This document shows, piece by piece, positions 6,962 to 29,679 of a stretch of 29,679 nucleotides of DNA. The notes below the pieces were generated by a model, which ran no database searches, was not told the DNA's origin, and worked only from the letters and a program-made list of their open reading frames with translations. The translations under genes were made by a program, and so were the position numbers. Each line of letters opens with the position of its first letter. The stretch's first letter is position 1. Source of the stretch: a virus; IMG/VR virus record IMGVR_UViG_3300010392_000080, positions 1 through 29,679 of that record; one strand, 5' to 3'.

Positions 6962-7708
6962 ATGCCTGCCGTTTCAGAAAGCCGCTATCTCATCCAAGCA
7001 GGATGGGACGATGTACCGCATTTGAACGAAAAGACTAAGCGCGAGCTGCTGGATGCCACACCGCCGCACCTTCGGGATGCGCGGTCGAAGGGCACGCCGT
7101 CGCTGGGGGCGGGCGCCATCTTTCCGGTTCCCGAGAGCGAGTTTGTTGTAGCGCCGTTTCAGATCCCGGCCTACTTCCCGCGCGCCTACGGCCTTGATGT
7201 GGGCTGGAACAGGACCGCGGGTGTTTGGGGCGCTCACGACCGGAACACAGACACGCTGTATCTTTATGCCGAACACTACCGGGGCGAAGCGCCGCCAAGC
7301 GTCCATGCCACGGCCATCAAGGCCAGGGGCAACTGGATACCCGGCGTGATCGACCCTGCAAGCCGGGGGCGCACACAGCGCGACGGTGAGCAACTTATTA
7401 CCGACTATCGGTCCCTTGGGCTCAATCTGCAGTCCGCAGACAACAACGTCGAAAGCGGGATTTACAACATCTATGAGCGCCTGACCACCGGGCGCCTCAA
7501 GGTGTTTTCCACGCTTGGCAACTGGCTAGCCGAGTACCGGCTTTACCGCCGCGACGAAAAGGGGCGGATCGTCAAGAAGAACGACCACCTGATGGACGCC
7601 ACCCGATACCTGATTATCAGCGGCTTGGCCCGCGCCATCGTTCAACCAGTCGAAACCACCGGGCCGCTTGTTGGCTCAAGTATAGGGGATGCCAGTGCAG
7701 GTTATTGA
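6962..7708 (+). CDS. terL: Terminase large subunit, nuclease half
   Basis: 248 aa with the RNase H-like nuclease of the large terminase, which cuts DNA at packaging start and end. The start of the frame matches the inter-domain region (YLIQAGWDDVPHL, residues 9-21). Acidic metal ligands are recognisable at D79 in GLDVGWNRT, D131 in VIDPASRG and D212 in NDHLMDATRY. ATG 6962 follows the ATPase-half stop by one base (TGATATG) and has no clear ribosome binding site, so translation would depend on coupling. The frame is open upstream to about 6911, giving roughly 50 bases where a +1 shift could join the halves. It overlaps the portal gene by about 20 bases. Confidence 0.88.
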   Translation: MPAVSESRYLIQAGWDDVPHLNEKTKRELLDATPPHLRDARSKGTPSLGAGAIFPVPESEFVVAPFQIPAYFPRAYGLDVGWNRTAGVWGAHDRNTDTLYLYAEHYRGEAPPSVHATAIKARGNWIPGVIDPASRGRTQRDGEQLITDYRSLGLNLQSADNNVESGIYNIYERLTTGRLKVFSTLGNWLAEYRLYRRDEKGRIVKKNDHLMDATRYLIISGLARAIVQPVETTGPLVGSSIGDASAGY

Positions 7709-9905
7709 TGGACCGCATGATCTGACAGTCGAAGAACTGGAAGAATTGGACCGGATGAAGAAGGAAGAAGTGCGCGTCAAGCAGGTTATCGCTGGCATAG
7801 CGCACCGCCTCGAAAATGAAGCCGAGCAGGTTGTGGCGAAGAAGTCGGACGTTGAGCTGGGCTGGTACGGCGATACGCGCCAGTATTATGGCCGCTACGA
7901 CGCCGACACCGAGAAGAAGCTAAAGGACGGCAATAAGTCGCGTCTGTTTGTGCATCTGACCCGCCCAAAAACCGACACTTGGATTGCGCGGATCTTCGAC
8001 TTGATGTTCCCGACCGACGAGAAGAATTGGGGCATAAAACCGACGCCTGTACCAGAAATGCAGGCCAGTCTGGACGTGGAGCCGCGGCTGAAAGAAGGCC
8101 AGGCGCCCACAGAGGCACAAGCCGCCATGATAGAGAAGGCCCGCGCCAGCCGCGACTATATGGAGGAAGCTACCGCGAGATCCGATTCCATGTCGCGTGA
8201 AATGGAAGATCAACTGGTTGAGGCACGCTATGCCGCCGAATGCCGGGACGCGATCGAGTTCATGTGCAAGCTGGGCACCGGTATCATGAAAGGCCCGATC
8301 GACGGCGGCAAGACCCGTCGCCGCTGGGTCAAGCTCTATGATGAGAATACGCGGCAGGAATACTTCGACCTCAAGGCGGTTGCTGATGCCCGCCCGGTGT
8401 TCACCTGCACGGATCCTTGGAACTTCTTTCCAGACCCGAACGCAACCCGTATCGAGGACGCCGAGTTTACCTTTGAGCGCCACCTTTGGACGAAGAAGAA
8501 AATGCGCAAGATGGCCTATGCGCTTGGCTTCGACAAAGATGCGGTGCGCGCGCTGCTGGAAGAGGGGCCACAAGGCAAGATCCCTGATTACATCAGCCAG
8601 ATCCGCGCGATCGCCCGCCAGAACGAAGCCTCTATCGAGAACCGCTTTGTGGTCTGGGAATACCGAGGGCCAATTGAGCAAAACGAGCTGAAAGATCTGT
8701 TCTATGGCTTTGATCAGGCCGATGATTGGCGCGCTATTGAAGGCGAGGTTGACCCGCTGACGGACGTTGATGTGGTGGTTTATGTCTGCCAGGGCCACGT
8801 CCTGAAATTCGGTATCCACCACCTCGATAGTGGCGAGCCTATCTATAGCATTGTCAACTTCGCCAAGGATGTTTCCAGCATGTGGGGTTGGGGCGTTCCT
8901 GCCTTGATGCGCGACAGCCAGTCAGCCGTAAACGCTGCGTGGCGCATGATGCTGGACAATGGCGGGCTATCTGCCGGGCCGCAGGTTCTGGTCAACCAGA
9001 AGGCTGTATCGCCTGCAGACGGGGTTTGGGAGCTGACAGCCCGCAAGGTCTGGAAGATCAATGACAATGCGCCAAACGGTATCACGCCGTTTCAGGTTGT
9101 CTCAATCGACAGCAACCAGTCCGAGCTGGCCAACATCATCACCTTTGGCAAGCAGTTCATTGACGAAGAGGTCAGCCTGCCGGGCCCAATGCAGGGCGAG
9201 CAAGGCGGGCAGGTGGCCAACACGGTTCACGGTCTGGCCATGCTGATGAACAGCTCCAACGTGATCTTCCGCCGCGTGATCAAGAACCTTGATGATGATC
9301 TGACCGTGCCGTGCCTGCGTCGCCTGTACGACTGGAACACGCAGTTCAACGACAAGCTGGACATTAAAGGCGACATGCAGGTTGACGCCCGCGGATCCTC
9401 CGTTCTGCTAGTGCGCGAACTGCAGTCTCAAAACCTCATGGTGTTGCTGCAGCTGGCCGCACAGGATCCAGAGCTTGCGGGCCGCATCAAGAAGGACGAA
9501 GGGCTACGGAAGGTTGTTCAATCCATGATGCTTTCGTCGGACGACCTGATCCGCGACGACGAAGAATACAAGGAATGGATGGAACAGCAGATGGCGTCGC
9601 AGCAGGGCACAGCACAAACTGGCCCATCACCGGAAGAAGTGAAGCTGCAGACGATCCAGATGGAGCTGGATAGCCGCAAGGAAATTGCCCTGATCAACCG
9701 CGAAACCGAGCTGATGAAGCTGGCGGAACAGAAGGGCATGAAGATTGAGGAACTGCGCACCAAGCTTGGAATTGCCCAGATGGCGCAGGAAGGCGACGAA
9801 CGCAAGATGGCTGCCGAGGCAGGCTTCAAGATGAAGCTGGCCCGAGAAGAGGCGGCACAGCGCGCGGTTGAGGTGCCCGGCACCAGCTTTGGCGGCGCGA
9901 TCTAG
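7689..9905 (+). CDS. Portal protein
   Basis: 738 aa from ATG 7689. The portal dodecamer forms the DNA entry channel at one capsid vertex. The N-terminal region (VELGWYGDTRQYYGRYD, SRLFVHLTRPKTDTWIARI) and the core (FTCTDPWNFFPDPNATRIED, ALMRDSQSAVNAAWRMMLDN) are typical of large podoviral portals. Residues about 650-735 are a long charged helix with 11-residue periodicity, matching a C-terminal barrel or crown helix. AGGGG at 7684-7688 abuts the ATG, so GTG 7695, six bases beyond it, may be the true start. Overlap with the terminase nuclease frame, followed by scaffold and capsid genes, fits the standard head module. Confidence 0.88.
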   Translation: MPVQVIDGPHDLTVEELEELDRMKKEEVRVKQVIAGIAHRLENEAEQVVAKKSDVELGWYGDTRQYYGRYDADTEKKLKDGNKSRLFVHLTRPKTDTWIARIFDLMFPTDEKNWGIKPTPVPEMQASLDVEPRLKEGQAPTEAQAAMIEKARASRDYMEEATARSDSMSREMEDQLVEARYAAECRDAIEFMCKLGTGIMKGPIDGGKTRRRWVKLYDENTRQEYFDLKAVADARPVFTCTDPWNFFPDPNATRIEDAEFTFERHLWTKKKMRKMAYALGFDKDAVRALLEEGPQGKIPDYISQIRAIARQNEASIENRFVVWEYRGPIEQNELKDLFYGFDQADDWRAIEGEVDPLTDVDVVVYVCQGHVLKFGIHHLDSGEPIYSIVNFAKDVSSMWGWGVPALMRDSQSAVNAAWRMMLDNGGLSAGPQVLVNQKAVSPADGVWELTARKVWKINDNAPNGITPFQVVSIDSNQSELANIITFGKQFIDEEVSLPGPMQGEQGGQVANTVHGLAMLMNSSNVIFRRVIKNLDDDLTVPCLRRLYDWNTQFNDKLDIKGDMQVDARGSSVLLVRELQSQNLMVLLQLAAQDPELAGRIKKDEGLRKVVQSMMLSSDDLIRDDEEYKEWMEQQMASQQGTAQTGPSPEEVKLQTIQMELDSRKEIALINRETELMKLAEQKGMKIEELRTKLGIAQMAQEGDERKMAAEAGFKMKLAREEAAQRAVEVPGTSFGGAI

Positions 9906-9914
9906 CCCGACACT

Positions 9915-10133
9915 ATGAAAATCAATGTCCACGGAATGGACTGGCAGGCGATCCAGAAATGGATCCTCGCCAGGCGCAAGCTGCTGCTTGAGCAGCTGCA
10001 GGATCCCAACACCACACACGACCAGACACAAGTTCTGCGGGGGCGTCTCGCAGAGCTTCAAGCGCTTGAGGATGCACCCAAGAGCGCTGATGAGCCCGCC
10101 GAGGAAATGCAAACCGAATCCTACGGCATTTAA
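9915..10133 (+). CDS. Small helical hypothetical protein, 72 aa
   Basis: Starts nine bases after the portal stop, without a strong ribosome binding site. The sequence (MKINVHGMDWQAIQKWILAR, then LLLEQLQDPNTTHDQTQVL) is a short alpha-helical pair with an acidic C-terminal tail. Small proteins of this kind are often found between portal and scaffold genes, but I recognise no defined family. It lacks a membrane segment and is probably cytoplasmic or a minor head-assembly factor. Confidence 0.65.
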   Translation: MKINVHGMDWQAIQKWILARRKLLLEQLQDPNTTHDQTQVLRGRLAELQALEDAPKSADEPAEEMQTESYGI

Positions 10134-10175
10134 CCACGAAACCGCCCACCCGGGCCGTTGAGGAATTAAGCCAAC

Positions 10176-11150
10176 ATGACTGACAAAAAGACCGATCACG
10201 ACGAATTTGAAGCAGCATTCAACGCAGCATCTGGCGAAGGTTCAGGCACACAAGAACCAGCAAAAGAACCAGAGCCGACGCCGCCAGCGGATACTGCGGC
10301 AGATCAAGAAGAACCCGCCGCAGACGATGCCGCGGGCGAAGGTGAAGGCGGGCAAGAAGACGCCGCGCCGCAAGGCGACGAAGACGAGAATAAGGCGGAT
10401 CCGTGGGCAGATGCCCCTGAGCCGCTGCGGGCCGAGTTTGAGGCCCTGCAAACCAAATACCGGGACGTTGACCACCGATACCGCTCTGACACGGGCCGTA
10501 TCAGTGCATTGAACCGGAAATATGCAGAAACCCAGCGCGAAAACGAAGAGTTGAAGCGCCAACTGGCCGCACACGGTAACGGTGCCGCCACCAACAAAAA
10601 CGGCACTGCCCAGGGTGACGACGCCGAGGACGATTTCGAAAGCCTCCGCGCAGACTACCCGGAAGTGGTGGGGCCGATTGAAAAGAAACTGAAAGCCTCT
10701 GAGGCAAGGGCCGATGTGCTTGAACAGCGTTTGGCCTCGATGGACCAAGAGAAGCACCAGTCCTACATCATCAGCCAGCAAAACTACTTGTCCGATGCGC
10801 ACCCTGATTGGCAGCAGATTGGGGGATCCGACGAGTTCCACGCATGGGTTGGTGATCAGCCGCGCATGATCCAAGACGCGCTCGCTCGCAACAGCGAACA
10901 CATTGTCGATGGTGAAGAAGCGGCGGCAGTGATTGCGCTTTTCAAGCAGTCCCTCAATGCCGATCAGGGCAACGGCGGGCAACCAGACCCGCAACCCAAT
11001 CCAGAAGAAAAACCGACGACCAGTAAACGTGACCTGCAACGCAAGTCTGCGTCTGCGCCGACCTCTCGCACCTCCACAGGTGGCGGGGATGGGCCAGCCG
11101 ACGACTTCGAGTCAGCGTTCAAGTTCTACGCTCGTCAAGACGAGAAGTGA
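10176..11150 (+). CDS. Capsid scaffolding protein
   Basis: 324 aa. Residues 1-80 are highly acidic and low in complexity (Glu, Asp, Ala, Pro, Gly). A coiled coil follows at about residues 88-135 (KYRDVDHRYRSDTGRISAL, NRKYAETQRENEELKRQLA) and another helical stretch near 165-200 (KKLKASEARADVLEQRLAS). After a Pro/Gly/Thr-rich linker the C-terminus ends in DDFESAFKFYARQDEK, a short helix like those that dock scaffolds to coat protein. This acidic, helical, disordered composition and its place directly before the capsid gene fit a scaffolding protein that guides procapsid assembly and then leaves. A GAGGA ribosome binding site precedes ATG 10176. Confidence 0.85.
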   Translation: MTDKKTDHDEFEAAFNAASGEGSGTQEPAKEPEPTPPADTAADQEEPAADDAAGEGEGGQEDAAPQGDEDENKADPWADAPEPLRAEFEALQTKYRDVDHRYRSDTGRISALNRKYAETQRENEELKRQLAAHGNGAATNKNGTAQGDDAEDDFESLRADYPEVVGPIEKKLKASEARADVLEQRLASMDQEKHQSYIISQQNYLSDAHPDWQQIGGSDEFHAWVGDQPRMIQDALARNSEHIVDGEEAAAVIALFKQSLNADQGNGGQPDPQPNPEEKPTTSKRDLQRKSASAPTSRTSTGGGDGPADDFESAFKFYARQDEK

Positions 11151-11158
11151 GATAGGTA

Positions 11159-12154
11159 ATGCCTAACACGACTACCTACGGCGACATTAACCAGCGTACC
11201 GCTGGCTGGGCCGCAAACGAAATGCTCAAGCACGCCGAGCCTGAGCTGGTCCTGGCAAAATTCGGCCAAACCAAGCCGATGCCCAAAAACAAGGCGGAAA
11301 AGGTCAAGTTCCGCCGCCCTGTGCCGTTCGGTGCAGCAACCACGCCTCTTGTTGAGGGTGTGACCCCTAACGCCCAGAAGATGGCGTATGAGGACGTGGA
11401 AGTTACCCTGAACCAGTATGGTGTCCCTATCGAGATCTCCGACAAGGTTGCAGACCTTGCGGAAGATCCCGTGCTTAAGGACGCATCCATGCTGGCTGGT
11501 GAGCAAGCCGCCCTTACGGTGGAAATGATCACCTATGGCGCAATCAAGGCCGGCACCAACGTCTTCTATGCAAACGGCACGGCCCGGAACCAAGTGAACA
11601 CGGCGATCAGCCTGGACAAGCAGCGTGCGGTAACGCGCGGCCTGCGTGCCCAGAAAGCGGCGTTCATCACCAATGTTCTGAGCGGTTCCACGAACTATTC
11701 CACCAAGCCGGTGGAACAGGCATATGTGGCCGTTGCGCACACCAACCTTGAAAGCGACATTCGCAACCTTGCGGGCTTCATTTCCACGGCAGAGTATGGC
11801 AGCCGCCAAATTCTCTGCGCTCAGGAAATCGGTTCCGTCGAGAATGTGCGATATGTGCTTTCTTCCGAGCTGGATGCGTGGCCTGATGCGGGCGGTGCCT
11901 TCAACGGCATGCTGACCACCAGCGGCGCCCAAGCCGACGTTTACCCGGTTATCTTCATTGGCCGGGATGCATATGGCCTTGTGCCACTCAAGGGCATGAA
12001 CGCCATCACTCCGATGGTAATCAACCCTGGCCAGCCTTCCAAGTCTGACCCTCTGGGCCAGTGCGGTTACGTGTCTTGGAAGACCTACTTTGCAGCTGTC
12101 ATCCTGAACCAAAACTGGATGGCCCGCCTCGAAGTGGCCGCTACCGGCCTCTAA
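11159..12154 (+). CDS. Major capsid protein, N4-gp56 type (HK97 fold)
   Basis: 331 aa. The opening (TTTYGDINQRTAGWAANEML) and the segments VEGVTPNAQKMAYEDVEVTL and QYGVPIEISDKVADLAED are characteristic of N4-gp56-family capsid proteins. The P-loop and E-loop regions of an HK97 fold can be followed by order. DPLGQCGYVSWKTYFAAVIL near the C-terminus corresponds to the last strands of the fold. No separate protease or long delta domain precedes it; a separate scaffold gene lies upstream. Its stop codon is in the loop of an 8 bp hairpin (12142-12162), and a strong terminator follows 28 bases later, a common arrangement for highly expressed capsid genes. Confidence 0.92.
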   Translation: MPNTTTYGDINQRTAGWAANEMLKHAEPELVLAKFGQTKPMPKNKAEKVKFRRPVPFGAATTPLVEGVTPNAQKMAYEDVEVTLNQYGVPIEISDKVADLAEDPVLKDASMLAGEQAALTVEMITYGAIKAGTNVFYANGTARNQVNTAISLDKQRAVTRGLRAQKAAFITNVLSGSTNYSTKPVEQAYVAVAHTNLESDIRNLAGFISTAEYGSRQILCAQEIGSVENVRYVLSSELDAWPDAGGAFNGMLTTSGAQADVYPVIFIGRDAYGLVPLKGMNAITPMVINPGQPSKSDPLGQCGYVSWKTYFAAVILNQNWMARLEVAATGL

Positions 12155-12162
12155 GGCCGGTA
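12142..12162 (+). other. Hairpin enclosing the capsid stop codon
   Basis: TACCGGCC at 12142-12149 pairs perfectly with GGCCGGTA at 12155-12162, leaving the loop TCTAA that contains the TAA stop of the major capsid gene. It has no T run of its own and lies about 20 bases before the intrinsic terminator. It could stabilise the capsid mRNA 3' end or affect termination of translation; this is inference. Confidence 0.6.
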
Positions 12163-12182
12163 ATTCGTTCTGAGTACCCGTG

Positions 12183-12210
12183 AAAGGGGGGCTTCTTGCC
12201 CCCCTTTTTT
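12183..12210 (+). terminator. Rho-independent terminator after the capsid gene
   Basis: AAAGGGGGGC at 12183-12192 pairs with GCCCCCCTTT at 12198-12207 around a TTCTT loop and runs straight into six T at 12205-12210. The stem can be extended by the flanking GTG/CAC bases. It separates the capsid gene from the gp49-like gene and probably limits readthrough into the lower-expressed connector and tail genes. Confidence 0.9.
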
Positions 12211-12237
12211 CTTTTCACGCTCGTTGAAAGCGAAGCC

Positions 12238-12546
12238 ATGAAAGACGAAACAGCCATTGAGGCGGAAATCAATGCCAAGGGCCTGAATGCACCACGTTTG
12301 ACCACGGCACAGATTGACGACTGTATCGTGTCGCAACAGTTCCATGTTTTCCCTGGCACGACCCTGACCGTTTGCGCCCTCACGCTCAAGAACGGTTATC
12401 AAGTCGTAGGCGAGAGCGCCTGCGCATCACCCCAAAATTTTGACGCCGAAATCGGACGCAAGATTGCCTTTGAAAATGCACGCCAGAAGATCTGGGCACT
12501 TGAGGGCTACCACCTGCGTTCTGAACTTTCAAAACAAGCAAAGTGA
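12238..12546 (+). CDS. Phage Gp49-like family protein, 102 aa
   Basis: Starts at ATG 12238, since the upstream in-frame extension would run through the terminator. CIVSQQFHVFPGTTLTVCAL (about residues 28-47), then KNGYQVVGESACASPQNFD and AFENARQKIWALEGYHLRSE, match the small Gp49-like phage protein family. In other phages this family occurs among head and tail genes and has no known reaction. The Cys residues at 28 and 46 are not part of an obvious metal site. It lies 7 bases upstream of the next gene. Identity of the family is fairly firm from motif order; its role is unknown. Confidence 0.78.
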   Translation: MKDETAIEAEINAKGLNAPRLTTAQIDDCIVSQQFHVFPGTTLTVCALTLKNGYQVVGESACASPQNFDAEIGRKIAFENARQKIWALEGYHLRSELSKQAK

Positions 12547-22724: not shown

Positions 22725-25700
22725 ATGGCGTCGAAACCTTTTGATCTGGATGGGCTGCAACCGCTTGATGTTTCGGGCTTGCTGCCTCAAAGCGGCCTTG
22801 ATGTAAACGGCCTTGAGCCCCTAGACGCGACCGGCCTGCAGCCGATCGACAAAGAGTTCAGCCTGGACAATACCGCCCGCCTCACGGGCGAGCGGGCTGG
22901 TGATGTGGCAGGGAACTTCATTGATTTTGGCCACACGCTGGGCAAGGAAGTCGATAGTGAAGAGGCTGGCCTGCCTGCGCTCATTCTTGGCCGTAGCAGA
23001 GAGACGCTTGAAAAGGCCGGTGTTGAGCCAGCCTTCTATCTGGGTGATCATGGTTTCGGCGTTGCTTCATATGATGAGAAGCAGCGGATTCGGCAAGTCT
23101 CTGATCACTTCCTGAAAAAATCGGCCGACGCGCTGAAAAATCTTGATCTTGGTGGCGATGAAACCAAACAGCGTTCATGGGACGAGGTAAAGGACAGCCC
23201 CATCAGCAACGTCCTGCCGTTTATCGTAGAGCAGGGGCTTGTTTCCACGCCTGACATGCTGGCAGCCATCTACGCCACGCCAGCCTACGTCACCTCGCGT
23301 TCTCAGGAAATCGGCGGCGAGCGGGCAATTAACGACGGCAGGGCAGAACCTACCGTTGAAGATGTGGTGAAAGCTGCACCGGCTGCCGTTGCATCTGCTA
23401 TCCTTGAGCGCTTCGGCGGCAAGGGGATGTTGGGCATTGATGAAGCTGCGGTTCAATCAGCAAAGCAGATCCTGCCAGAAGTCGGCAAGGCTGCCCTGAA
23501 AGAAGGCGCAACCGAGTTCGGCCAAAGCATCATCGAGAACGCAGGCGCCACGGTTGGAACAGAGCGCGGCTTTGAAATGGAAGAAGCCTTGGACGAAGGC
23601 TTTGCGGGCGCAGTAGCAGGCACTGGCTTTGGTGGCATTGTGCGCGGCGGAACGGCAACGGGCGAGCTTGTACTTGGCAGCAGGCCTGCGCCAGCTGGTG
23701 AAACAGACGTTGACGGCCAGCGGCTGGCAACAGTGCCGGATAATGTGAGTGACGCTGACATTGCAAGCCCGATTCCTACTGACGTTATCAGCGAAGGCCG
23801 GGCAGAGCTTGACGCAGCCTTGAACCATGCAGAGGCCCCCGCTGCAGATCCAGTGCCACAAGCGCCGACAGTGACAGCCCAGCCTGAGCTGGAAACGCTA
23901 TTCGATATGGATAGCGGTGAGGCGATCGGCCAATATAACCCAGGCACGGGCGAAACCTTCCTTGGTACACCTCAGCCCGAGCAATCCGCGGCCCAAACGC
24001 CAGCACCGGTGCCAGATCCTGCACCCGCAAAACTCCCCAAAGTTACAGTCGGCAATGACATTGAATTTGATGGCCGACCAATGAATATCACGGCTGTTGA
24101 AGGCCGTTTCATCATCGCAACGAACGCGGAAGGCGTGCCAACAGTATTCCGCGGCAAGAAGGACTTTGAGGCGCGAACCGGCCATACTTTTGAAGGCTTT
24201 ACAGCTGCCCGCGGCGCCATCCCCAAACGCCCGCCGTCCCTTGTTGAGCTGCTGCGCAAGCAGGGGATCCGCAAGGATGATGCGAAGGCCCAGGGTGTGG
24301 ATCTGGACGGCAAATTGCCCAAGCATTTGGCGCAAGTGTTCAGCAACAACCCGAAGACACTGACGCTTGATCAGGTAGGTGAGCGCCTTTCGGAAATGGG
24401 CTTGCTGCCACAAGGTGCTTACGATCTTTCCGATGTGGTCGAGCTGGTCAATCAGGATCTGCTGGCACACCGCAACAAGGATATGTCCCAAGCTGTCGTG
24501 CCTGCAGCCGATGTGGTTGAGAAGTTGGCCCGGCAGGAATATGAGGCACGACAATTCGAGCTTGGCGAGCTGGCCGACCTTTCTTATACTGAGCGCGCGA
24601 AGCAACTGCGCCAGCAATATGAAGCGGCGCCAGCAGTCGGCAATGAGCTGACGCAGGCCGAGATTGAGGCCGCATTTGATCTGGACAACTACAGGGCCAG
24701 CTACTTCGATGAAAACGACGCGGCAGAGCGTGCCGCAATGGAGGCTTATTACCGTGGACAAGACAATGACGGTGCAGGACGGCCTGGACATGGTGAACAA
24801 GCAGATACGCGAAACCGAGGTGTTTCTGGAAACCCAGCCGGACCACAAGATGGCCGACGAGGCAGCGAAGAAGCTGGGCGAAATGCGAGCCTTGAGGGAC
24901 CACCTACTGGACAGGCAACAAGCGCTGCAGAACTAGACCCTTTCGATCTGTCGCAGCCTGTACCAAGGGCGGGCAATCTTTCCAAGGTCGGCCAGAAGGA
25001 GCTGAGCAAGATCCAAGCTAATGCCGTGATTGAGGCAGGCTTGGCCGTTGAGGGCTCACCCCTGCAGGCCATTGCCAAGAAGGCGAGGGCAGGAAAGCTG
25101 CTGAGCAAGTCAGAGCGCAGCACGCTTGAAGAAGCTTTCGCGCGCAATGATCAACGTGCAGCTGAGCTGAAACTTACCGAGACAGAACAGCGTGCCGCGT
25201 CGGTCTATCAGAAGCTGCTGCAGCAGGGCTACAACGGCAATCTGCCACTGGACGACTACCGCCGCCAGCAGTGGCGCGAACAGGTCGCAGAACTTGCTGA
25301 AAACCCCGGCAGGTATCATCCGGTTGTCGAGGCAGCGAACGACAAAGGGTTGTCTATTGGCGACGAGGTAGTTGTTGGTGGTGATCCGGCCTTTGTGGTT
25401 TCCATTGATGAACAGGCCGGGAATATCCTTGTAAAAGTTGCCAGCACCAAGAATTTCGGCGGCTGGCTGGAACTGGAAAAGGTGACGCGGCCCGATGAGC
25501 CGCTGCCACAAGACGCCGATGGTCAAGCGCGCGTGCCAGGCAGCGAACGCACGGATGAGAAAGAGCAAGCTGCGAGCCGGGCAGAGGCTGAAATGCGCGC
25601 CCGCCAGCAGCAAAGCAAAATCCGAAAGGATGGGCAGGAATCGCTTGCCAACCAAGACGGTGGCCTGTTCAGCGCAGAGCGTGATCAAGGCAACTTGTTT

Positions 25701-28700
25701 GACACATCTGGCCTGCAGGAATTAAAGTCAGGCGAGAGCAAGAAGGAAGACGCAGATGTATCAGGTAGCCGCGCCAATCTGGAACGCGATAGCCGAGACA
25801 CAGGATCTGAAAACGGATTGGGCGAAACAGATGTTTCCGCTACCCGCCGAGGATCTGAGCAAGGCCCTGCAGATGGAAGAACAGCGCCTGACAGCAGAAG
25901 CCGGGACGGCGATGCTGGCCGCACAGTATCTGACGCTGATGCCGCTCCTTTGGGAGAACGAGGCGATCGCGGCGCACGTCGCCAGCAATCCCTCTTTGAT
26001 GACGGCACTACCGAACGTGACGAGCGCGGAAGAGGCGATACTGATGGCGGCAGCAGACAGGCCGAGAATGACGCAGGCGGAAAAGACACGCTTGCACCAA
26101 ATGCTGACGAAGCAGCCCAACTAGAAGCCCGCACCGAGCGGCAGGCAGCCGCTGACAAGATCAAGGTCAAGCCTGCAGACGCTGCCAATATCCGCGACAC
26201 GCTGCCGCTACTTCTTAAAGACCAGCAAACCGACGTATTGAAGGCGGAGACGCGCTTCAATAATCCGGACGCGCTGCCGGGCTACCTGTTCACCAACGGG
26301 ACCGGAACGGGCAAAACCTATGTTGGCGCAGGCGTGGTTAAACGCTATGCCCGCCAGGGTAAAGACAACATCCTGATTGTTGCACCCTCACAGGGTATCC
26401 TGCAGGGATGGGTAGAGGCCGGCACGGATCTTGGCCTGAATATCTCCATCCTTGATGACACCAAAAGCAAGGGCAAGGGCATTGTCGCAACGACCTACGC
26501 GAACCTTGGCGAGAACCCCCGCCTTGCCGAGCGCGATTGGGATCTGGTGGTCAATGACGAGTCTCAGGAGCTTTCAAAGAACGAGCGCGGGGATCCGACG
26601 CTGGCGCTCAATAACATGCGCGCGATCACCAATCGGGGCCGCTCTGGCGATCGTTACCAGAAAGCACGCATGCTGCTGGCCGATAAGTGGGCGCCGTACT
26701 TCGAGCTGGTTGAGCGCGCACGCACTCTGAAAAACAGCAAAAAGAAGGCCGATAAAGATTTGGCCGAAAACTTGATGTTCAAGGCCAAAGAGCTGGGGGA
26801 GACGCTGCACCCGGAAACCAAAGCCAAGGCAGACAGCCTGACGGATGCGCCGCGTACAGATGTGCTGTTCCTATCGGCCACACCTTTTGCCTACGACAAG
26901 AACATTGATTACGCCGAAGGCTATCTCTTCGATTATGGCAGGGATAAAGAGGGTGGCCGCGCATACAACGAAGGCGACGCCCGCGACCAGTTCTTCATGC
27001 AGCCCTTCGGCTACCGCATGCGCTACAACAAGCTGACGCGCCCGGAAAGCGGCGTAGACAGCGAAGTGATGGAACGCGAGTTTCACGAATGGCTCAAGGA
27101 GGAAGGCGCTCTCTCTGGCCGCAGGCTGGAAGTTGATGCCGACTATGACCGTAAATTCGTGCTGGTTGACGACGCCGTGGGTGCGAAAATCGACCAAGCG
27201 CTGGACTTTCTGCGGGAAGCCGACAAGGGCAAATTCCGTGACCTAGCTGACTTGGTGAACAAGCGCTTCGATTACCTCACCCGCATGAAGCTGCTGGAAG
27301 CCATCAAGGCGCGGCATGCTGTCCCGATGATCAAGCAGCACCTCGCCCTTGGCCGCAAAGTTGTTGTGTTCCACGACTATAACGTGGGCGGCGGCATCAA
27401 CCCGTTTGTGATGCCCGCTGACGAGCAAGTGCTGGTGCGCGTGGGTGTTGACGGCACGGAAAAAGAGATCAGCCTGCAGAAGCTTTATGCGGAGTTCATT
27501 GCACGCAACCCATATGTGGAGAAGCTGAACTTTTCAAGCTTCCGGTCGCCTATCAATGAGATCCGCGAGAATTTCGACCAAGCGCTGATCTACAACGGCA
27601 GGGAAAGCGCCAAGGCCCGCAATGAGGCCAAAAAGCTGTTTAACGACGACGAGAGTGGCCATGATGTCATTCTGGTGCAGTCGGCAGCTGGTGAGGCCGG
27701 TATCAGCCTCCATGACGCCAAGAACGGCAAACAGCGTGCCTTGATCAACCTTGGCATGCCCACGCGCCCGACGACGGCCATTCAGGAAGAAGGCAGGATC
27801 TATCGCACCGGCCAGACCTCTGACGCGATCTTCCGTTACATGAATACCGGCACCAGCTGGGAGCGCTGGACGTTCGCCCAGAAGATTGCTGAACGCGCAG
27901 GCACAGCAGAGAACCTTGCCCTGGGTAACGAGGCGCGGGCGCTCAAGCAGTCCTTCATTGACGCCTTTATCGACAGTGACGTTTACGAGCCCACAGCAGG
28001 CGAGGGCAAGGGCGGCAAGGAACTGGACTTTGTGGCCCGTGACGAACTGAGCGGCTTCGAGCGCGCGAAGACCTTCTATTGGGCCCAGCAAAAGAAAAGC
28101 GGGCGCCGGGACCAGCGCGAAGGGCAGGACTATTATGCCACGCCGGAGCCGATCGGCTTCAAGATGGTCGAGCTTGCCGACATCAAGCGCGGCGAACGGA
28201 TACTAGAGCCCTCTGCAGGGCACGGCGCCATTGCGCGTTTCTTCCCCGAAGACACTGACCGCACGATCGTAGAACCATCAAGCGAGCTGGCGAGTAAGGC
28301 GGCAATCGTATCCGCGGGTGCGAACGCAAAGAACCACACCTTTGAGGAATTGAACGTCCGGCTGAAATATGATGCGGTGGTGATGAACCCACCATATGGC
28401 ATGGGCGGCAAAGTAGCCATGGACCACCTTGCCAAAGCCATGAAGCACACCAAAAACGGTGGCCGCGTGGTTGCTCTTATTCCGACCGGCCCAGCTGCAG
28501 ACAAGCGCTTTGATGCCCTGTATGAGAGCAAAGAGGCCAAGGCATTCCATTTGGTGGCTGACATTAAGCTGCCCTCAGCGACCTTTACGCGCGCGGGCAC
28601 CAGCGTCATGACGCGCATTGTGGTGCTTGAGAAGCAGAGCGATAGTTCCGTTGCAGAAACACTCAATTCAATCCGGCGAGACTACACAAGCGCTGCGACG

Positions 28701-29679
28701 GTTGAGGAATTGTTCGAGCGGATCGAAGACCTTGACCTGACCGGGCGCAAGGATCCTGTGACGGCTGATGCTGATGAGATTGTTCCTGGTGAGCCTTTCC
28801 AGATTGGCGAACACACCTATAGCATGCGGCTTACCTCTCATGATCTGGACGGCAGCAACTATGTAGAATGGGCGAAATATCCGGGCCGCACCGAGCATGC
28901 GCGCCTCGCCGCCATGGCGGAGCGCATGAACGGCAACTACTTCAAAGCCCTGAAAGCCTTCTCGTTCGATACGGTCGAGGATTCGCAAGCTTGGATCCCT
29001 GAGGCGCGCAAGCCAGTGAGTGAGGGTACGGTATCCAGCAAGGGTATCGAGGGCGTCACCTTTGATACCGGCGAAACCACGCATAGTAAGACAGGGCAGG
29101 ATCTGTATGTGGCATCCTTCCAGACCCGCCACGACATGGATGTGTTTGTAGCGGTTCGAGAGATCGCCAAGAAGCACGACGGCTACTATTCCAAGTTTCG
29201 CGGGCGGGGCGCCATTCCGGGCTTCCAGTTCAAAACTGAAGAACAACGGCAAGCTTTCATTGATGAAGTTACCCAGGGCACCGCGACAGAAGAAAAGTTC
29301 AAGCTGCAGGACGAAGCCACAGAGGATGCGCCGCAGCGGGAGTTGTCCGGCCTCAGCCAAGAGGCCAAAAAGCAGCTTGAGGAACGCTTCCACCAGCTGG
29401 GGCTGGACGCGCACGCAGGGCTGTTCTTTGTGAAAGAGATTTCGACGGCTGTTGAGGGGCAGAAGCTGTCTGCCAATGGTCGCTTTATCAAGCTGAAAAA
29501 GGACGGCGCGGTCTATCGGTTTATTGAGATTGCCGAAGATGCACCCGACGCCCAGCACACACTGGATCACGAAACCATCCACGTTCTGCGCAGCATTGGC
29601 GCCTTCCGTAAGTCTGAATGGACTGCGCTTACCAAGGCCGCAAAGAAGGACCGCCAGCTGATGGCCCGCATTGATCGCC
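22725..29679 (+). CDS. Giant DarB-like polyprotein: helicase, N6-adenine methyltransferase, HExxH (3' partial)
   Basis: ATG 22725 opens a frame I translated without stop to the right edge, at least 2318 codons. Residues 7-43 carry LxPLDxxGL repeats. A glycine-zipper segment (GFAGAVAGTGFGGIVRG, about 292-308) could contact membrane. Residues about 1160-1760 form a superfamily 2 helicase: TNGTGTGKT 1190-1198, DESQ 1278-1281, SATPF 1384-1388, QEEGRIYRTGQ 1687-1697. Residues about 1805-1970 form an adenine-N6 methyltransferase: EPSAGHG 1828-1834, NPPY 1888-1891. HETIH at 2282-2286 has the zinc protease pattern. The helicase-methyltransferase order matches P1 DarB and the giant proteins of Bcep22-like phages, which are packaged, injected and linked to protection from restriction. 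That role is inferred. Two linkers overlap other genes. Confidence 0.9.
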   Translation, partial: MASKPFDLDGLQPLDVSGLLPQSGLDVNGLEPLDATGLQPIDKEFSLDNTARLTGERAGDVAGNFIDFGHTLGKEVDSEEAGLPALILGRSRETLEKAGVEPAFYLGDHGFGVASYDEKQRIRQVSDHFLKKSADALKNLDLGGDETKQRSWDEVKDSPISNVLPFIVEQGLVSTPDMLAAIYATPAYVTSRSQEIGGERAINDGRAEPTVEDVVKAAPAAVASAILERFGGKGMLGIDEAAVQSAKQILPEVGKAALKEGATEFGQSIIENAGATVGTERGFEMEEALDEGFAGAVAGTGFGGIVRGGTATGELVLGSRPAPAGETDVDGQRLATVPDNVSDADIASPIPTDVISEGRAELDAALNHAEAPAADPVPQAPTVTAQPELETLFDMDSGEAIGQYNPGTGETFLGTPQPEQSAAQTPAPVPDPAPAKLPKVTVGNDIEFDGRPMNITAVEGRFIIATNAEGVPTVFRGKKDFEARTGHTFEGFTAARGAIPKRPPSLVELLRKQGIRKDDAKAQGVDLDGKLPKHLAQVFSNNPKTLTLDQVGERLSEMGLLPQGAYDLSDVVELVNQDLLAHRNKDMSQAVVPAADVVEKLARQEYEARQFELGELADLSYTERAKQLRQQYEAAPAVGNELTQAEIEAAFDLDNYRASYFDENDAAERAAMEAYYRGQDNDGAGRPGHGEQADTRNRGVSGNPAGPQDGRRGSEEAGRNASLEGPPTGQATSAAELDPFDLSQPVPRAGNLSKVGQKELSKIQANAVIEAGLAVEGSPLQAIAKKARAGKLLSKSERSTLEEAFARNDQRAAELKLTETEQRAASVYQKLLQQGYNGNLPLDDYRRQQWREQVAELAENPGRYHPVVEAANDKGLSIGDEVVVGGDPAFVVSIDEQAGNILVKVASTKNFGGWLELEKVTRPDEPLPQDADGQARVPGSERTDEKEQAASRAEAEMRARQQQSKIRKDGQESLANQDGGLFSAERDQGNLFDTSGLQELKSGESKKEDADVSGSRANLERDSRDTGSENGLGETDVSATRRGSEQGPADGRTAPDSRSRDGDAGRTVSDADAAPLGERGDRGARRQQSLFDDGTTERDERGRGDTDGGSRQAENDAGGKDTLAPNADEAAQLEARTERQAAADKIKVKPADAANIRDTLPLLLKDQQTDVLKAETRFNNPDALPGYLFTNGTGTGKTYVGAGVVKRYARQGKDNILIVAPSQGILQGWVEAGTDLGLNISILDDTKSKGKGIVATTYANLGENPRLAERDWDLVVNDESQELSKNERGDPTLALNNMRAITNRGRSGDRYQKARMLLADKWAPYFELVERARTLKNSKKKADKDLAENLMFKAKELGETLHPETKAKADSLTDAPRTDVLFLSATPFAYDKNIDYAEGYLFDYGRDKEGGRAYNEGDARDQFFMQPFGYRMRYNKLTRPESGVDSEVMEREFHEWLKEEGALSGRRLEVDADYDRKFVLVDDAVGAKIDQALDFLREADKGKFRDLADLVNKRFDYLTRMKLLEAIKARHAVPMIKQHLALGRKVVVFHDYNVGGGINPFVMPADEQVLVRVGVDGTEKEISLQKLYAEFIARNPYVEKLNFSSFRSPINEIRENFDQALIYNGRESAKARNEAKKLFNDDESGHDVILVQSAAGEAGISLHDAKNGKQRALINLGMPTRPTTAIQEEGRIYRTGQTSDAIFRYMNTGTSWERWTFAQKIAERAGTAENLALGNEARALKQSFIDAFIDSDVYEPTAGEGKGGKELDFVARDELSGFERAKTFYWAQQKKSGRRDQREGQDYYATPEPIGFKMVELADIKRGERILEPSAGHGAIARFFPEDTDRTIVEPSSELASKAAIVSAGANAKNHTFEELNVRLKYDAVVMNPPYGMGGKVAMDHLAKAMKHTKNGGRVVALIPTGPAADKRFDALYESKEAKAFHLVADIKLPSATFTRAGTSVMTRIVVLEKQSDSSVAETLNSIRRDYTSAATVEELFERIEDLDLTGRKDPVTADADEIVPGEPFQIGEHTYSMRLTSHDLDGSNYVEWAKYPGRTEHARLAAMAERMNGNYFKALKAFSFDTVEDSQAWIPEARKPVSEGTVSSKGIEGVTFDTGETTHSKTGQDLYVASFQTRHDMDVFVAVREIAKKHDGYYSKFRGRGAIPGFQFKTEEQRQAFIDEVTQGTATEEKFKLQDEATEDAPQRELSGLSQEAKKQLEERFHQLGLDAHAGLFFVKEISTAVEGQKLSANGRFIKLKKDGAVYRFIEIAEDAPDAQHTLDHETIHVLRSIGAFRKSEWTALTKAAKKDRQLMARIDR
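24754..24936 (+). CDS. Small gene nested out of frame in the giant gene, 60 aa
   Basis: GTG 24754 lies nine bases after GGAGG at 24740-24744 (ATG 24766 is an alternative). The product (MTVQDGLDMVNKQIRETEVF, then KMADEAAKKLGEMRALRDHL) reads as a compact helical protein, with G/C-ending codons typical of this genome. In the same stretch the giant frame gives a Gly/Arg/Gln/Pro-rich linker full of GGA, CGA and CAA codons. This suggests the nested frame carries the coding constraint. It is in the +1 frame of the giant gene and stops at TAG 24934-24936. No family is recognised. Independent translation is inferred from the ribosome binding site; it has not been shown. Confidence 0.6.
   Translation: MDKTMTVQDGLDMVNKQIRETEVFLETQPDHKMADEAAKKLGEMRALRDHLLDRQQALQN
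25756..26124 (+). CDS. Gene nested out of frame in the giant gene, 122 aa
   Basis: ATG 25756 is eight bases after AAGGA at 25743-25747. The product (MYQVAAPIWNAIAETQDLKT, then MLAAQYLTLMPLLWENEAI and ASNPSLMTALPNVTSAEEA) is clearly protein-like and mostly helical, without obvious membrane anchor. Codon third positions are mostly G or C. The giant frame in the same stretch is an Asp/Arg/Gly/Ser-rich linker with AGA, GGA, CGA and ACA codons, directly before the helicase domain. It lies in the +1 frame and ends at TAG 26122-26124. I recognise no family; possible roles include a small partner of the giant protein or an unrelated accessory gene. This is the better supported of the two nested genes. 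Confidence 0.7.
   Translation: MYQVAAPIWNAIAETQDLKTDWAKQMFPLPAEDLSKALQMEEQRLTAEAGTAMLAAQYLTLMPLLWENEAIAAHVASNPSLMTALPNVTSAEEAILMAAADRPRMTQAEKTRLHQMLTKQPN

Follow-up and report, generated by a model that had tools for sequence, protein, structure and literature searches.

The textbook examples of nested phage genes are the Rz/Rz1 spanins of lambdoid phages, where the o-spanin gene lies within the i-spanin gene in another reading frame. In Erwinia phage PEp14 rz1 lies inside rz, and embedded spanins have been mentioned for the phage Parlo (PMC6606913). A further described system that is relevant here is the Dar system of phage P1, which comprises DarB together with DarA, Hdf, DdrA, DdrB and Ulx. 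All six of these proteins are co-ejected, and packaging of DarB requires both DarA and Hdf (PMC12810830). Phage polyvalent proteins were described by Iyer et al. 2017 (PMC5512222), with Strawberry-notch-like helicases in a few members. For the terms searched, that paper describes no overprinted or overlapping gene.

The DNA analyzed here is a viral stretch of 29,679 nucleotides (IMG/VR record IMGVR_UViG_3300010392_000080), referred to as the window. Towards its end, a small reading frame is overprinted on a linker of a giant DarB-like protein. Comparative evidence makes it practically certain that this frame is a genuine overprinted gene, in the absence of transcript, footprint or peptide data. 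Its product is very probably a long-conserved phage protein of unknown job.

The nested frame and its giant host gene

The locus contains the following features.

22725 to 29678, plus strand: host gene encoding a giant DarB-like/polyvalent protein (ORF; matches to PHROG giants, to Strawberry-notch-type helicases and to methyltransferases)
25699 to 25728, plus strand: weak sigma-70-like promoter match, possibly an own promoter of the nested gene (TTGACA, 18 nt, TAAAGT; consensus scan)
25743 to 25749, plus strand: Shine-Dalgarno-like AAGGAAG of the nested gene (seen in the sequence; SD-like 4-mers also precede homologous starts)
25755 to 26123, plus strand: giant-frame linker overprinted by the nested gene (low-complexity Gly/Ala/Ser/Asp/Arg; nearly neutral, stop-free)
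25756 to 26124, plus strand: nested overprinted gene, +1 frame, 122 aa, all-helical protein of family 1 (homologues, inverted selection, AlphaFold2)
25761 to 26120, minus strand: antisense open reading frame opposite the nested gene
26127 to 27900, plus strand: SNF2/Strawberry-notch-like helicase part of the giant (Pfam ResIII and Helicase_C_4; alignment A4 with a TNGTGTGKT Walker motif)
28050 to 28800, plus strand: N6-adenine methyltransferase-like part of the giant (weak Pfam matches of UPF0020/MTS/Eco57I type, PHROG methyltransferases)

The giant ORF opens at 22725 and is still open where the window ends, after 2318 aa; in relatives with a full giant ORF, its median length is 3771 codons. 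An earlier reading made without database searches (the sequence-only reading) had taken this host for a giant polyprotein. The giant stands, as a DarB-like/polyvalent protein: it is very large and multi-domain, it has helicase and methyltransferase parts, and its relatives are annotated as DarB-like. That it is a processed polyprotein has not been shown. The helicase part adjoins the nested gene directly downstream, and the methyltransferase-like part is matched by 209 phage records in tblastn.

The nested ORF begins with ATG at 25756, ends with the stop codon TAG at 26122-26124 and lies wholly inside the giant ORF, on the same strand and in the +1 frame relative to it. Its ATG is preceded by AAGGAAG at a distance of ~7 nt. 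The ORF, its start and its ribosome binding site are exactly as the sequence-only reading had described them, and the codon usage it had pointed out was confirmed in both frames. In the giant frame the rare codons AGA, GGA and CGA amount to 3.3%, 5.7% and 2.4% over the overlap compared to 0.0%, 0.5% and 0.5% in the rest of the giant. The preference of the nested frame for G/C-ending codons is reflected in a GC3 of 0.74, compared to 0.43 for the giant frame in the overlap and 0.66 for the rest of the giant (determined for locus L017, the nested gene of which is identical to that of the window). When the giant protein of the window was kept and its codons were reshuffled, the +1 frame remained open in 34% of trials. 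The length of the nested ORF alone is therefore not significant; it is the conservation at 136 loci, together with the selection pattern, that makes this ORF more than a product of chance.

A consensus scan upstream of the nested gene found one sigma-70-like match, with 0.2 expected, 28 nt 5' of the ATG. Such matches are located upstream of only 14 of the 136 homologues (10%, compared to 2% at random).

Homologues and selection in the two frames

Homologues, for which the sequence-only reading had suggested a search, do exist, with phages and a plasmid among their carriers. By tblastn, the nested protein was found in six distinct named phages with 28-52% identity to the window protein: Ruegeria phage 45A6 (51%), Serratia phage Parlo, Pseudomonas phage Skulduggery, Klebsiella phage ZX1, Vibrio phage 1.232.O and Vibrio phage D274. 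In each of the six, a single long CDS surrounds the nested frame; its annotation reads DarB-like, PLxRFG, methylase or hypothetical. The gene is also present on a Comamonas plasmid bearing phage tail genes and in IMG/VR contigs and prophages of many phyla; phages and prophages with the family come from Proteobacteria, Negativicutes, Bacteroidota, Verrucomicrobia, Campylobacterota and others. In the phage records examined, the nested gene is nowhere annotated. Since, in addition, gene callers generally disallow long overlaps on the same strand, a nested family this widespread could remain unseen until now.

Altogether, 136 distinct nested copies were compared. They encode 118-153 aa (median 124) and start at an equivalent ATG position in the same frame, with 133 ATG and 3 GTG start codons. 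The host ORF is uninterrupted across all copies, and the nested frame is always +1 and usually placed just before the SNF2-like helicase. An SD-like 4-mer precedes 120 of the 136 starts, compared to 20% of random ATGs. Codon usage was also compared with that of the giant gene, and in 103 of the 136 loci the nested frame resembles it more closely than the giant's own frame does over the overlap. Scored against the same giant, the nested frame reached 0.112; the giant's own frame scored -0.158 within the overlap and 0.220 outside it. The GC3 of the 136 copies follows the same order as in the window (nested 0.74, giant frame in the overlap 0.38, giant elsewhere 0.64).

A collection was also assembled with the downstream helicase as query, giving 80 viral and 65 genome loci (145 in total). 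With the first profile the nested gene was detected in 133 of them, always +1 and with an open host frame. Richer profiles added L180, L186, L190 and L196, plus L189, so that 138 of 145 helicase loci carry the nested gene; L183 and L194 among these are weak or partial matches. The seven loci without it (L166, L168, L170, L172, L174, L177 and L178) are free-standing helicase genes of ~610-860 residues, from Bacteroidota and, in one case, Thiotrichales. Loss of the nested frame in relatives, which would have counted against the gene, was thus not seen in any embedded relative found. As the loci without the gene have a free-standing helicase, the nested gene accompanies the giant protein and not the helicase alone. 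The free-standing genes are related to the helicase part of the giant and are a possible source of the helicase module.

Five DarB-like giants in which this helicase is missing, including P1 DarB, do not have the nested gene, and the 35 viral contigs retrieved with the nested profile contain no free-standing copy. Of 16 genomes searched, 15 were matched, with one nested copy per genome. In gammaproteobacterial genomes the gene was present in 2 of 369, and the newly added copy again lies beside a helicase ORF. Genome contigs scanned with a Parlo-type profile gave no match, nor did E. coli genomes with the Parlo fragment. Distances of the nested protein and of the helicase are correlated (Mantel r 0.74). 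The nested gene is also kept in 11 loci where further coding sequence of 213-1125 nt intervenes between it and the helicase. It is for this reason not merely a start signal of the helicase, and exact adjacency of nested gene and helicase is not required.

Substitutions between close relatives show which frame is constrained. Between the window and its close relative L018, the overlap contains 20 substitutions, of which 19, 0 and 1 fall on giant codon positions 1, 2 and 3; nearly all of them are at the third position of nested codons. In the flanks, the corresponding numbers are 67/47/136 and 25/16/123. For a quantitative estimate, changes in eight independent close pairs were divided into four classes according to their effect, synonymous or nonsynonymous, on each of the two frames. 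Over the overlap, the nested frame had an omega of 0.28-0.30 and the giant frame one of 0.90-0.94. In the adjacent helicase, which served as a control with the same pairs and the same code, it was 1.01 for the +1 frame and 0.19 for the giant frame. Indeed, purifying selection on the nested frame is evident when only changes that are nonsynonymous in the host are considered (0.28, compared to 1.01 in the control). The selective roles of the two frames are inverted over the nested gene, and the sequence-only reading was right to infer that constraint acts on the nested frame and that the Asp/Arg/Gly/Ser linker is what results when the giant frame is read through it. The counting method is simple and uses no likelihood model; it is the helicase control that makes the result convincing. 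Single pairs vary, and the Vibrio pair alone gives a nested omega of 0.91.

Synonymous recoding of the nested protein would create a mean of 1.3 to 11.6 giant-frame stops per locus (3.2 in the window), yet none exists and the linker is stop-free in all 136 loci. The combined figure for this absence treats related loci as independent and is not a probability. These results indicate that the giant frame over the nested gene is a nearly neutral linker that is not free to close.

Structure and possible role of the nested protein

AlphaFold2, run with 31 sequences, predicted seven helices with a mean pLDDT of 95.2 and a pTM of 0.88. Nothing credible was found for the nested family in Pfam, PHROGs, NCBIfam, PADLOC or PDB, where scattered weak hits vary between members, and Foldseek searches against PDB and BFVD returned no match with E below 1. 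A missing fold match does not show that the fold is new. Several candidate identities were rejected. The cyanophage A4 pre-ejectosome is too weak as a fold relative (best VIA-align Z 3.2 over 92 residues, 4.7 A), and a DNA mimic of the Ocr type does not agree with a mean net charge of only -4.7 for the family. P1 Ulx and DdrA gave negative profile scores with E values of 0.7 or worse. The transposon-encoded protein TnpV (PF14198) was excluded for this family, as none of the 31 members has a Pfam match. No description of the nested family was found in the literature; most subscription papers were outside the search, and an earlier mention cannot be excluded.

We infer that ribosomes may start at the Shine-Dalgarno sequence and ATG of the nested gene on the mRNA of the giant. 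A small all-helical protein would then be made alongside the giant, for which there are no expression data. With less certainty, this product could be a dedicated companion of the giant anti-restriction-type protein, possibly keeping the enzymatic half soluble or inactive, or aiding its packing or ejection with the genome. The functional comparison for such a companion would be P1 DarB, by analogy, because of its dependence on partner proteins for packaging. That the nested protein has a role tied to the giant we judge slightly better than an even bet. This rests on co-occurrence and position, which could also reflect a recombination cassette, and interaction data are lacking. A role in assembly, packaging or regulation in particular is a more tentative suggestion, which we would sooner doubt than assert. 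The giant of Pseudomonas phage H66, which does not contain the nested gene, is annotated as detected in the virion by mass spectrometry; this is the only evidence on packaging or ejection of such giants, and it is indirect.

Alternatively, the gene may be real and its product, perhaps a small anti-defence or host-takeover protein, may work without the giant; the gene would then sit there only because space is available, in a cassette that recombines as a unit. Small phage proteins of this type are common, and the nested gene stays put where inserted domains separate it from the helicase. An independent effector, however, would be expected to move alone at least sometimes, whereas the nested gene strictly co-occurs with the embedded helicase across many phyla, is absent from free-standing helicases and has no free-standing copy in the viral contigs or genomes searched. 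We regard an independent product as unlikely without setting it aside.

A less probable alternative, and one we would give only a small chance, is that the gene survived the assembly of the giant. An ancestral gene would have been located between an upstream gene and a helicase gene, and a stop loss would have fused both around it, its original, unrelated function being kept. The more genome-like codon usage and firm fold of the nested frame, the neutrality of the giant frame over it and the existence of free-standing helicases are all in line with such an origin, while no genome was found that has a free-standing small gene next to a separate helicase. As this scenario concerns origin, it does not exclude a companion role. 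Codon usage hints that the nested gene is older than the surrounding fusion; an origin inside the linker is not excluded.

Programmed ribosomal frameshifting from the giant, which would yield a shortened giant with a different tail and no free small protein, is very improbable. The nested frame is open upstream of its ATG in many loci (median 13.5 codons, maximum 188), but a stop lies within 5 codons of the ATG in 42 of 136 loci and directly before it in 16, which disfavours frameshifting as the only route, and the start codon and SD are conserved. Finally, that the open frame is no gene and only a by-product of codon bias in the low-complexity linker can be practically discounted, as the frequent openness of reshuffled codons, seen for this window alone, is outweighed by the omega difference to the control, by 136 copies conserved with start and SD and by a fold predicted at pLDDT 95; selection and conservation rule out a chance ORF, which is refuted in practice.

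A second overprinted family and comparison with known systems

The arrangement of a small gene overprinted on a giant recurs in a second family (MNLxNW..., about 105 aa), which a scan of other DarB-like giants revealed in Erwinia phage PEp14 and relatives, again in the +1 frame.

L204:16779-17096 (PEp14), L207:6001-6318, L208:6001-6327, L209-L214 from 6001, and L215-L269: second overprinted family

Its hosts are DarB-like giants of the PEp14, SopranoGao/LASTA, Itty13 and Atu_ph08 types. Of 51 distinct copies in viral contigs, 48 lie nested in the +1 frame, all of these with ATG and 47 with an SD-like motif; two of the three non-nested copies are cut by a contig end, and in the third (L223) the giant looks broken. 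Selection was inverted here as well (omega 0.22 in the nested frame, 0.96 in the giant frame). Profile comparison detected no homology between the two families. Their first four predicted helices are similar in length and position, although the predicted structure of the second family is less certain (pLDDT 77.9), and a fold search with it gave no match. TnpV (PF14198) matches the second family weakly, with E values of 2e-4 to 4e-4, below the curated cut-off, and does not match the family of the window.

Several further observations were made on such giants. The giant gp70 of Burkholderia phage BcepIL02 contains a 107-aa nested ATG frame (+1, L203:36296-36619) with a strong SD (gaaggagg), which is conserved in eight Burkholderia phage records and resembles the second family by eye only. 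In Sinorhizobium phage PBC5 the giant is split (L213:1-6309 and 6966-12240): orf33 continues without a frame change into the second-family protein and shares its stop codon, orf23 bears the methylase part, and a frameshift, real or a sequencing error, could explain the split. PHROG 938 (endolysin) seems to inherit the PBC5 orf33/second-family arrangement. In Pseudomonas phage Itty13 (L209:1905-8318) the annotation of the giant's locus shows long hypothetical proteins on the strand opposite to the open giant frame, apparently a misannotation.

The existence of the second family makes a general principle of overprinted companions in giants plausible, although it is only partly explored. In its strong form, an obligate small companion gene would be a general property of giant virion-delivered proteins, encoded in the +1 frame within the linker that precedes the enzymatic half. 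At least two sequence-unrelated families would have converged on this arrangement, and such linkers would be a regular, overlooked home of important phage genes. To this we give just under an even chance. Given this recurrence, a new scan of giant phage proteins for embedded genes seems warranted. The nested gene of the window is a concrete candidate for a missing part of DarB-like anti-restriction machines. It is also an unusually clean and deep case of overprinting, in which the small frame is constrained and the host frame is a nearly neutral read-through, and it is useful for the question of how overlaps arise and persist.

Overprinting as such is a known phenomenon, and what is new is this conserved case. 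Compared to Rz1, the nested family has no lipoprotein-type composition (Cys is rare) and no spanin match in any library, and its host is a giant helicase-methyltransferase protein. It shares with Rz/Rz1 that a small phage gene with a start of its own lies wholly within a same-strand gene, in a different frame; in Rz/Rz1, the product of the embedded gene is known to partner that of the host gene. Neither the nested gene nor this helicase has a homologue in the darB region of P1. The partners of DarB are encoded by ordinary separate genes, and Ulx and DdrA show no sequence relationship with the nested protein. DarB itself is, like the present giants, which are annotated as DarB-like, a large helicase-methyltransferase protein; it is delivered with the DNA and depends on partners. 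Finally, the host in the window belongs to the polyvalent proteins, with which it shares a multi-domain architecture containing a helicase-methylase dyad.
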